This document shows positions 36,276 to 39,060 of a stretch of 39,060 bases of DNA, one piece after another. The translations under genes and the position numbers were made by a program. This DNA is from Candidatus Coprousia avicola (lineage in GTDB: Bacteria; Actinomycetota; Coriobacteriia; Coriobacteriales; Coriobacteriaceae): positions 1 to 39,060 of the forward strand of contig DVMF01000022.1 of the NCBI GenBank assembly GCA_018715125.1, written 5' to 3'. Each line of letters begins with the position of its first letter. The stretch's first letter is position 1. The notes under the pieces are model-generated. The model saw only the letters and a list, made by a program, of their open reading frames with translations, ran no database searches and was not told the DNA's origin.

Positions 36276-37247
36276 TTGGATAGAGACGATTCGACCCGCG
36301 CCGCCGCGCGCCCGGCGCTTTGGGACCGCTGCGTCCCGTTTGCGCTGGTGGCGGGCACGCTGCTCGTTATCGCCGGCGTGGTCTGGACGTTTACCCTCGC
36401 GCCGTTCGCGCAGGGCGCGACGCTCTCCGAGCCGGCGGTCATCGCGGGCCAGCAGATCACCACCAAGCTGCTCCTCAGTCAGAAGATCTTTTATTTGCAC
36501 GTGCCCGTCGCCGTCGCCTCATTCGCCGTCATGGCGTTCGCCGCGTTTTGGGCCGTGCGCTTTTTGATGACGGGGGAGCGCCGCTACGACATCAAGTCCA
36601 AGACCGCTATGGAAGTCACGCTCGTTTTTGTGGTCGCGACCATGATTTCGGGCGACTTGTGGACGCGTTTCGAGTGGGGTGTCTGGTGGACGTGGGAACC
36701 GCGTCTCACCACCTATTTCATCCTCATGCTGCTCGTCATCGGCTACTTCATCCTGCGTAACGCGATGGAGGACCCCGAGCGCCGCGCGCGCTTTGCCGCC
36801 GTGTTTGGCATCGTGGCCTTTGTAGATGCGCCCATTTCGTTCATGATCACGCGCTTGGTGCCGAGCTCCGTGCACCCGGTGGTGTTCCGTACCGATAGCG
36901 GCCTGCCGCCGATGATGCTCATCCCGTTTCTGCTGGGGCTCTTTGGCATGCTGCTCGTCGCGTTTGCCCTTACGCGCATCGCCCTGCGCGTCAATACCGA
37001 CGCTGCCGAGGTGGAGGAGCTGAAAGAGCGGCTCGAGGAGCAGGATGCTTGGCGCGAGCGCGCTGCGGCCGATGAGGCGCTCGAGCGCCTGAGGGCTGCC
37101 GGCGCCAAGCTCAGCGGCTCGCGTCCCGCCGACGCCCCCGTCCCCGATGCGACACATACCCCGGAGGTCGTAGGTTCAAATCCCGCGGGCATGTCCCCGT
37201 CCCATGATGCCGCCGACCCCTCTACCTCGTCCTCTAAGGAGGCCTAA
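36276..37247 (+). CDS. ccmC: Cytochrome c maturation protein CcmC with extended tail
   Basis: CcmC loads haem on CcmE. The 323-residue protein has six transmembrane segments (to about 240), the WWD motif EWGVWWTWEPRLTTYFIL, and the two haem-ligand histidines in FYLHVPVAVAS and VPSSVHPVVFR that flank it. E. coli CcmC is about 245 residues; here a hydrophilic tail of about 80 follows, first a charged coiled-coil-like stretch (VEELKERLEEQDAW), then low-complexity sequence containing THTPEVVGSNPAGMS, encoded by a tRNA-derived fragment at 37155-37186. The start is the TTG at 36276, behind AAAGGGGATCC. CcmD follows four bases after the stop. Confidence 0.94.
   Translation: MDRDDSTRAAARPALWDRCVPFALVAGTLLVIAGVVWTFTLAPFAQGATLSEPAVIAGQQITTKLLLSQKIFYLHVPVAVASFAVMAFAAFWAVRFLMTGERRYDIKSKTAMEVTLVFVVATMISGDLWTRFEWGVWWTWEPRLTTYFILMLLVIGYFILRNAMEDPERRARFAAVFGIVAFVDAPISFMITRLVPSSVHPVVFRTDSGLPPMMLIPFLLGLFGMLLVAFALTRIALRVNTDAAEVEELKERLEEQDAWRERAAADEALERLRAAGAKLSGSRPADAPVPDATHTPEVVGSNPAGMSPSHDAADPSTSSSKEA
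37155..37186 (+). repeat. tRNA-fMet-derived fragment inside ccmC
   Basis: These 32 bases match 37589-37620 of the initiator tRNA gene at 30 positions: anticodon CAT, 3' side of the anticodon stem, variable loop and most of the T arm. The orientation is the same and the distance is 434 bases. Similarity stops abruptly on both sides. It is translated in frame as part of the CcmC tail. Confidence 0.85.
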
Positions 37248-37250
37248 CCC

Positions 37251-37445
37251 ATGGATGCCATTCTTGCCGAGGTCTATTCGACCGTCTTGCCCGCCGCTCC
37301 GTATGTTATCGGTGCCTACGTTGGAATTTGGATCGTGCTCGCCGTGTACACGCTTATGCTCTCGCGGCGGTCAAAGCAGACCGCCCGCGACCTCGACGCC
37401 CTCAAGCAGGCGCTCGCCGATCGCGAGGAGAAGCTCGAGCGCTAA
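37251..37445 (+). CDS. ccmD: Cytochrome c maturation protein CcmD
   Basis: The 64-residue protein has one membrane segment (about 15-37, with PYVIGAYVGIWIVLAVYTLML) and a charged C-terminal helix (KQTARDLDALKQALADREEKLER). This is the layout of CcmD, a small membrane protein that helps release holo-CcmE from CcmC. The position directly after ccmC and a strong AAGGAGG site support it. Sequence conservation in this family is low, so the call rests partly on context. It is the last gene of the ccm operon; no classical terminator follows. Confidence 0.85.
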   Translation: MDAILAEVYSTVLPAAPYVIGAYVGIWIVLAVYTLMLSRRSKQTARDLDALKQALADREEKLER

Positions 37446-37554: not shown

Positions 37555-37631
37555 TGCGGGGTGGAGCAGTCTGGTAGCTCGCCGGGCTCATAACCCGGAG
37601 GTCGTAGGTTCAAATCCTGCCCCCGCGACCA
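37555..37631 (+). tRNA. Initiator tRNA-Met (anticodon CAT)
   Basis: The 77-base cloverleaf has the acceptor strands TGCGGGG and CCCCGCG, anticodon loop CTCATAA, variable loop AGGTC and T arm GTAGG-TTCAAAT-CCTGC. The discriminator A and CCA are encoded. Three G-C pairs (GGG/CCC) next to the anticodon loop and a non-Watson-Crick first acceptor pair (T-G) mark it as the initiator. A perfect terminator follows at 37641. Confidence 0.95.
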
Positions 37632-37640
37632 TGAATTTGC

Positions 37641-37677
37641 CCTCCTAGCTGGGAAATCAGCTAGGAGGTTTTCTTTT
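37641..37677 (+). terminator. Rho-independent terminator of tRNA-fMet
   Basis: A perfect 11-bp stem CCTCCTAGCTG/CAGCTAGGAGG with a 6-base loop is followed by TTTTCTTTT. Confidence 0.9.
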
Positions 37678-37699
37678 ATCAGGTGCCCGAGATTGCCAA

Positions 37700-37723
37700 G
37701 GTAATGGGTATGGTAATGAGTAT
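37700..37723. repeat. Tandem 12-base repeat downstream of tRNA-fMet
   Basis: GGTAATGGGTAT (37700-37711) is followed directly by GGTAATGAGTAT (37712-37723), one mismatch. Its meaning is unknown; it could be a local slippage product or a protein-binding site. Confidence 0.5.
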
Positions 37724-37739
37724 CGTCTGGGGACGTGAC

Positions 37740-38075
37740 TTACCCCCTGCGCTTGGCAAGCGAGTCTCTTAGTGCTCGGAGCACCTCAATCGCCACGGGA
37801 AGCTCATCCGCCTCGAACGAGACTAGAATCTCTTGCACCTCCGCCGAGAGCGCGGCCTTGTCGGGGTTCGGCCCATCGGTCAGGAGCGCATCCGTTCCCA
37901 CCGAGAGTTCTTCGGCAATCCTCGCGAGCACGGGCAGGCTCAGCTTGGTGTTTCCGGTTTCGATGTGGCTCATGTGTGTGACGGAGATGCTGACCCTTCC
38001 CGCCAGCGCCTCCTGAGACAACCCGCACGCTTTGCGGTACCGCCTGATACGTTGGCCTATCTCGAAGTACTTCAT
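37740..38075 (-). CDS. XRE-family helix-turn-helix transcriptional regulator
   Basis: The 111-residue protein has a Cro/CI-type DNA-binding domain (about 6-60): IGQRIRRYRKACGLSQEALAGRVSISVTHMSHIETGNTKLSLPVLARIAEELSVG, here spanning all five helices. A C-terminal helical part (75-111) may dimerise. No membrane or enzymatic domain is present. The ATG at 38075 is chosen from the domain start with GGTGA as a modest ribosome site; an ATG five codons upstream behind AAGGTGA is an alternative. It is divergent from the gene at 38251 and probably controls the shared intergenic region and itself. Confidence 0.88.
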   Translation of the reverse strand: MKYFEIGQRIRRYRKACGLSQEALAGRVSISVTHMSHIETGNTKLSLPVLARIAEELSVGTDALLTDGPNPDKAALSAEVQEILVSFEADELPVAIEVLRALRDSLAKRRG

Positions 38076-38133
38076 GCAATCACCGCCCATCGGAATCAAG
38101 TCACCTTGAATCCTATGAGCGTTTTTTCTTGTC

Positions 38134-38166
38134 TATAATAGCTGCGATAGGCTGTTTTATGCCTAT
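38134..38166. promoter_or_regulatory. Candidate -10 and XRE operator in divergent region
   Basis: TATAAT (38134-38139, plus strand) is a consensus -10; the overlapping CTATAATAG also gives TATTAT on the other strand. An inverted repeat ATAGGC (38147-38152) and GCCTAT (38161-38166) with an 8-base spacer lies just downstream, a layout typical of XRE operators. No good -35 is seen. Confidence 0.4.
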
Positions 38167-38250
38167 ATAGTTAAAGTTCAGCGCATGCGCATCGAGGATG
38201 CGCCGGGTGGCCGCCGGGCAGGGCCGTATTTGAGAAGAAAGGTTAGACGA

Positions 38251-39042
38251 ATGAACGAGCAGACAGCCGACTTGCTGCCACGCGTCGCAACTGCGCACGA
38301 GTTGATGCACCGCGTGGTCGACCTCCAGAACCGCATCAACCAGCTCACCACGCAGTTCGCTGCCAAGACGGAGAAGAAGTCGAAGCGCCACCCCGTGCTC
38401 TACGCAATCGCGGGCTTCCTCATCGCGTTCGCGCTCATCACGAGCACCCCGCTGAAGGCGGTTACCTACCCGCTCACCATCCCCTTCTTCGCAACGGGCG
38501 GCATGGAGCTTCAGGTGACCGTGTGGAACGTCATCAACCTTGCTGTCTCCGCCGTCATCGGCGCGGTCCTCTACAAGGTCATCGCGAAGTCCGCCGACAA
38601 GAGCCGCGCCCAGAAGAACGCCGCCATCGACCGAAACAACGCCCAGGTCGAGGCGAACAACCAAGCCCTCGCGCAAAGCATCGAGCAGACGAAGCGGGAA
38701 ATCTTCGCCACGCAGCAGCGCTGGGCCGCGGAGGTCGCGCCATGGTACCCGATGGACTACGACAGCATCGACGCCGTGGACTTCTTCCTTACGGCCGTAC
38801 GCAACCACCGCGCGAGCACCGTGCAGGAGATGGTCAATCTCTACGAGACCGAGCGTCACCAGCGGCGCATGGAACAGGGTCAGCAGCAGATTCTCCAGCA
38901 GCAGCGCATAGGCAACATGCTCCAGCTCGGCAACCTCTTCATGCAGGGTCAAATTCTCAATCAGGCACAACAGATTAACGCTAACACCGCCAGCGCGAGC
39001 AGCAGCCTCGACTGGATAAGCAACGCCATGGGAAGGCGATAA
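38251..39042 (+). CDS. Two-membrane-segment coiled-coil protein of unknown function
   Basis: The 263-residue protein is not one I recognise as a named family. It has a helical N-terminus (LMHRVVDLQNRINQL), a basic patch (KTEKKSKRH), hydrophobic segments at about 48-66 and 90-110, then a long cytoplasmic-looking helical region (112-165), the block WYPMDYDSIDAVDFFLTAVRN with RASTVQEMVNLYETERHQRRM, a Gln-rich stretch (207-245) and a Ser/Ala-rich end. The block recalls, from memory, a segment (RADTLKEALNLYEEE-like) of small membrane proteins in Firmicutes and Actinobacteria of unknown role. AGAAAGG precedes the ATG. Its base composition looks a little less GC-rich than the core genes. It sits next to an XRE regulator after a tRNA gene. 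Confidence 0.75.
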   Translation: MNEQTADLLPRVATAHELMHRVVDLQNRINQLTTQFAAKTEKKSKRHPVLYAIAGFLIAFALITSTPLKAVTYPLTIPFFATGGMELQVTVWNVINLAVSAVIGAVLYKVIAKSADKSRAQKNAAIDRNNAQVEANNQALAQSIEQTKREIFATQQRWAAEVAPWYPMDYDSIDAVDFFLTAVRNHRASTVQEMVNLYETERHQRRMEQGQQQILQQQRIGNMLQLGNLFMQGQILNQAQQINANTASASSSLDWISNAMGRR

Positions 39043-39060
39043 GAGACGTACACAGAGGGG

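Follow-up and report, generated by a model that had tools for sequence, protein, structure and literature searches.

What is a piece of the initiator tRNA gene doing inside the coding sequence of ccmC, and what has kept it recognisable there? The question arises from 39,060 nucleotides of contig DVMF01000022.1 of Candidatus Coprousia avicola (hereafter the window, meaning this whole stretch of DNA), in which a sequence-only reading had pointed to a short match between ccmC and the tRNA-fMet gene downstream of it. We reproduced the match: CATACCCCGGAGGTCGTAGGTTCAAATCCCGC (37155-37186) and CATAACCCGGAGGTCGTAGGTTCAAATCCTGC (37589-37620) are identical at 30 of 32 positions, share the same orientation and lie 434 bp apart. 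The second site falls inside the tRNA-fMet gene at 37555-37631, for which ARAGORN gave the anticodon CAT.

A tRNA-fMet segment in the tail of ccmC

The features of the locus, all on the forward strand, are as follows.

36276-37247, +: ccmC-like gene (Cytochrom_C_asm, PF01578, E=6e-23; TIGR01191, 99.6 bits) with a variable, family-specific C-terminal extension in which the fragment lies
37050-37244, +: C-terminal extension of CcmC beyond the EEQDA motif, evolving fast; in its second half the lineages cannot be aligned with one another, the fragment excepted
37155-37186, +: tRNA-fMet fragment (tRNA positions 35-66), translated in the ccmC frame as HTPEVVGSNP(A) within the tail; 30/32 identity, with orthologous copies in four relatives
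37251-37445, +: small ccmD-like gene lying after the fragment and before the tRNA (TIGR04391, CcmD_alt_fam, 26.5 bits, exceeding the cut-off of 24)
37555-37631, +: tRNA-fMet (CAT), donor of the fragment and the sole copy found in the draft assembly (ARAGORN; Rfam RF00005, 63 bits; pattern searches)

The match goes far beyond what chance would give and is peculiar to tRNA-fMet, because the next best tRNA agrees with the fragment at only 23 of 32 positions and the 29-mer core, with up to two mismatches allowed, occurs at just two places in the 2.4 Mb genome, both already known (ccmC and tRNA-fMet). The tRNA comparison covered 44 distinct sequences, extracted from the 46 genes that Rfam found in the draft assembly. 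The earlier reading had named two findings that would overturn it. A different tRNA as the source was ruled out, none of the 44 sequences matching better. An assembly error, or a ccmC stop codon ahead of the fragment in relatives, was likewise rejected: the fragment is present in five separate assemblies, and the relatives retain it in frame.

CcmC functions in heme handling during cytochrome c maturation. Although the TIGR01191 score lies under the ccmC cut-off of 186, CcmC is still the best fit for ORF 36276-37247, which carries the Cytochrom_C_asm domain and a WWxWEPRL motif and is flanked by ccmB-like (PF03379) and ccmD-like (CcmD_alt_fam) genes. After the FEWGVWW motif, CcmC extends for 157-219 aa in the Coriobacteriaceae examined, compared with ~123-128 aa in most other Coriobacteriia. 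The earlier statement that other CcmC proteins lack such a tail therefore holds outside Coriobacteriaceae and fails within the family, where the extension is general; the tail is family-wide and older than the fragment, and the tRNA-derived stretch alone is restricted to the genus. A comparison of the tails with every ARAGORN hit, dominated by one false tRNA-Glu call inside ccmC of locus L057, was used for tail lengths and for the match in Collinsella sp. An307 (below) only.

The fragment is read as HTPEVVGSNPA within the ccmC ORF, in agreement with the proposal that tRNA sequence was captured as coding sequence. Read forward, the tRNA segment is free of stop codons in a single frame of three, the one that ccmC uses. 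All copies described below share this frame because the reading frame must stay open, and the shared frame is thus not independent evidence for a function of the peptide. Several of the codons are uncommon in the long ORFs of the window (TCA, 5% of Ser; GTA, 14% of Val; GGT, 19% of Gly; AAT, 21% of Asn).

Distribution and conservation within the genus

We compared six genomes of the same genus with a complete ccmC, the window included. Five of these gut bacteria have the fragment, always in the same frame, namely the window, Collinsella sp. An268 (G006), Collinsella sp. An307 (G003) and two MAG species (G004 and G001); the peptide follows the pattern H[TN]PE[VG]VGSN, and the fragment starts 81-93 nt ahead of the end of the stop codon. 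The extents of the copies differ by lineage, covering tRNA positions 35-66, 32-63 or 25-72. In all six genomes the order is kept, with only the end of ccmC, ccmD and the tRNA leader between the fragment, or the place where it would lie, and tRNA-fMet. The sixth genome, An7 (G005), has an intact ccmC without a recognisable copy; at best its tail holds a decayed remnant (13/16, codon-shuffle p=0.07), which is suggestive only. An7 is also the only one of the genomes compared here whose tRNA is a variant (CCCAG stem). In the other genera of Coriobacteriaceae, 12 ccmC tails were scored and none held a fragment beyond chance, and across 67 genomes of the family the CATACCCC version is confined to ccmC of this genus. 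A match at G000:C51 was discarded, as it lies in coiled-coil codons of ccmD, outside the fragment.

A further genome, G008, was not scorable, with ccmC cut at a contig end and tRNA-fMet in a different context, on a separate contig without ccmC or ccmD just upstream (L145, L017; G008:C148, G008:C85). Either the ccmC-ccmD-tRNA order is broken in this genome or the bin is mixed.

Across the five carriers, only 1 of 9 third positions and 4 of 29 columns of the fragment vary. In the ccmC core, all 216 nine-codon windows lie above 1/9 (minimum 2/9, mean 5.6), and the minimum in ccmD is 4/9. Fourfold sites of the ccmC core differ at ~40% between genomes, close pairs apart, and the tail ends are unalignable outside the fragment. 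Even in a close pair, the window and An268, the two copies of the fragment do not differ at all, against 12 differences in the other 163 nt of the tail. These frozen synonymous sites are poorly explained by peptide selection alone. Four of the carriers have C at tRNA position 39, where the tRNA has A; An307 has A.

The copy in An307 also matches the tRNA over a wider stretch, with 47 of 48 bases identical across tRNA positions 25-72. The bases flanking the core (10 on the left and 9 on the right) agree with the tRNA at 19 of 19 sites in An307, against 5-7 of 19 in the other four genomes; such a patch, identical to the local donor past the shared repeat, is as expected of a gene-conversion copy. 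Neutral decay since the genus ancestor would predict ~11 mismatches in these 48 bases, compared with the 1 seen (P about 5e-5, a rough value, as are all such neutral estimates here, the segments having been picked for their match). The left junction adjoins CCCGATG, which is common to ccmC of the window, so the An307 tract sits inside orthologous sequence. When 3 kb of upstream sequence was combined with the ccmC core, the tree joined An307 to the window and An268 as their sister (support 0.98) and left the remaining genomes with C outside this group; a tree of ccmC only places An307 differently, with weak support. The An307 copy is most simply accounted for by gene conversion, or by templated re-copying with the tRNA gene as donor. 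In the other four genomes the inner 25 bp may plausibly have been converted too, but all of them keep the C.

Origin and persistence of the fragment

We consider it probable that a local duplication long ago placed the fragment in a dispensable tail and that gene conversion has since kept it tRNA-like; it would have no function of its own. A single ancestral capture, conversion as the mechanism and the lack of function are all three what we infer. On this account, a piece of the tRNA-fMet gene ~430 bp downstream would have been copied into ccmC of the genus ancestor, at its unconstrained 3′ end, by template switching during replication or by a short recombination patch, in a frame that reads HNPEVVGSN without a stop. 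Because the two copies stay close direct repeats, the ccmC copy could then be overwritten repeatedly, if occasionally, by the tRNA sequence through non-reciprocal gene conversion. Transfer in the reverse direction would harm the initiator tRNA gene, apparently present once, and would be purged by selection. The ccmC copy would meanwhile be translated within a dispensable, probably disordered tail, where it need have no function. The suggestion of an origin by local duplication or gene conversion, already made from the window itself, gains support from the 47/48 match in An307 and from the frozen synonymous sites. Counting against conversion is the persistence of C for A at position 39 in four genomes, which means that conversion must repeatedly halt before that edge. 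Repeats of 25-30 bp are, moreover, near the lower limit for homologous recombination. The at best decayed remnant in An7, the small number of copies (five) and the discordant, weakly supported placement of An307 by ccmC alone weigh on the same side.

The main rival, which we regard as unlikely, is that the DNA of the fragment is itself selected within ccmC, as a protein-binding site, a regulatory RNA element or a secondary attachment site, and is kept without conversion. Frozen synonymous sites are what such selection would leave, and the C variant common to both deep lineages fits vertical descent under constraint. However, An7 has an intact ccmC without a recognisable copy, and the broader tRNA match of An307, beyond the stretch kept elsewhere, is unexpected from constraint on the core. 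The anticodon and T stems, furthermore, are broken in 4 of 5 copies: four copies retain only 2-3 of the 5 anticodon stem pairs, and every copy (5/5) has at least one broken T stem pair. A conserved RNA structure in the fragment was ruled out on this evidence, which also makes it unlikely that the ccmC mRNA offers a tRNA-like decoy, contrary to the earlier suggestion of a decoy for tRNA-processing enzymes. It is decidedly improbable that the ccmC copy is kept for a role at the DNA level, for example as an attachment site, in reserve or as a decoy, that would divert elements from the sole initiator tRNA gene, or as a standing repair template for part of that gene. Selection on the peptide PEVVGSN(P) as part of the CcmC tail is very improbable. 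The peptide is near-constant in five species amid an otherwise unalignable tail end, but its third positions are more frozen than any window of the protein core, the tails of other genera lack it, and it has undergone substitutions (V to G in G004, P to A in An307). Least credible would be a series of independent recent captures at the same spot in several lineages; the lineage-specific extents and the fresh appearance of the An307 copy would suit such a history, yet the C variant is common to four genomes of two deep lineages and all copies occupy one place in the tail.

A scar or displaced piece of a mobile element that integrates in tRNA-fMet is also quite unlikely as the source. The idea has a real basis in the family, where tRNA-fMet is an integration hot spot, with displaced 3′ fragments kilobases downstream in many genomes and a Phage_integrase gene adjoining such a fragment in An7 and at IMG/VR locus L139; the copies in G001 and G004, moreover, begin at the anticodon loop, like many att cores. 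However, displaced fragments and att cores reach tRNA position 77 in 18 of 18 cases, whereas the ccmC copies end at 63, 66 or 72. Displaced fragments that share contig and strand with the tRNA, moreover, all lie downstream of it, whereas the ccmC copies lie upstream. The An307 copy includes positions 25-29, absent from most cores. No element was found in ccmC of the six same-genus genomes, and none of the IMG/VR contigs searched for the ccmC version of the fragment carries it. As an attL or attR the ccmC copy would be anomalous, having no tRNA 3′ end and no integrase-bearing element between it and the tRNA. The proposal of an integration scar or integrase decoy is therefore disfavoured, with no displaced att fragment found upstream in the orientation of the tRNA.

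The survey of tRNA-fMet loci yielded further observations on integration. Three IMG/VR loci from two contigs hold tRNA-fMet cores of 38-47 bp; on one viral contig, IMGVR_UViG_2788500330_000003 (L140, L143), two cores of 38 and 46 bp lie ~9.5 kb apart, which suggests tandem elements at the same site. In An7, a 27-kb stretch runs from tRNA-fMet to a displaced fragment of 48 bp, next to which lies an integrase gene (L147, L148; G005:C15:105000-111000, 128000-136000), and a second, decayed fragment (80%) lies 3 kb past tRNA-fMet; nested or successive islands are suggested. The sole displaced fragment lying upstream is in G088 (L193, G088:C1:1891500-1895000), where a 52-bp exact copy of tRNA-fMet 26-77 is inverted ~105 bp upstream of the intact gene. 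In the window itself, the sequence just past tRNA-fMet (37632-39060, where the contig ends) is unlike all relatives compared and holds an RstR/Cro-like HTH gene (37740-38099, - strand) and an unmatched 285-aa ORF (38185-39042); an island or prophage that has integrated at tRNA-fMet probably begins here.

Meaning and comparison with known systems

The finding is somewhat wider than what the window had first indicated, the fragment being present across a genus, unusually conserved at the DNA level and re-copied in at least one lineage. It provides a clear case of a structural-RNA gene that has donated, and probably re-donated, coding sequence to a neighbouring protein gene across a genus. If conversion is the mechanism, repeats of only 30-48 bp would be open to homogenisation in nature, and an essential tRNA gene would be able to impose its own sequence on protein-coding DNA. 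The locus also calls for caution, since synonymous conservation may stem from conversion and not from function.

We found no report in the open-access literature of bacteria in which conversion keeps a tRNA fragment in frame. Peptides such as VVGSNPA arise from ORFs that overlap tRNA genes; the peptide and the tRNA frame are the same here, but ccmC is a conserved, real gene and not an ORF drawn across a tRNA. Rickettsia palindromic elements (RPEs) belong to dispersed palindromic families inserted in frame in protein genes. The ccmC fragment is likewise repeated non-coding DNA captured in frame, but it is a single tRNA-gene fragment at one site.

In gene-conversion or template-switch patches between short direct repeats, one copy is overwritten by a nearby paralogous sequence, as we propose for ccmC; the present case differs in its essential tRNA donor, its protein-tail recipient and a repeat of ~30-48 bp. 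Prokaryotic tRNA fragments have been explained mainly by mobile-element integration (PMC9897764, PMC4383910). The attR-type displaced fragments (Islander, PMC4383910; van der Gulik et al., PMC9897764) resemble the ccmC fragment in being a 3′-side piece from or near the anticodon arm, on the same replicon as the intact gene. Unlike them, the ccmC piece is translated, sits upstream of the tRNA without flanking an element and does not include the gene's 3′ end, and we regard it as an unusual recombination relic.
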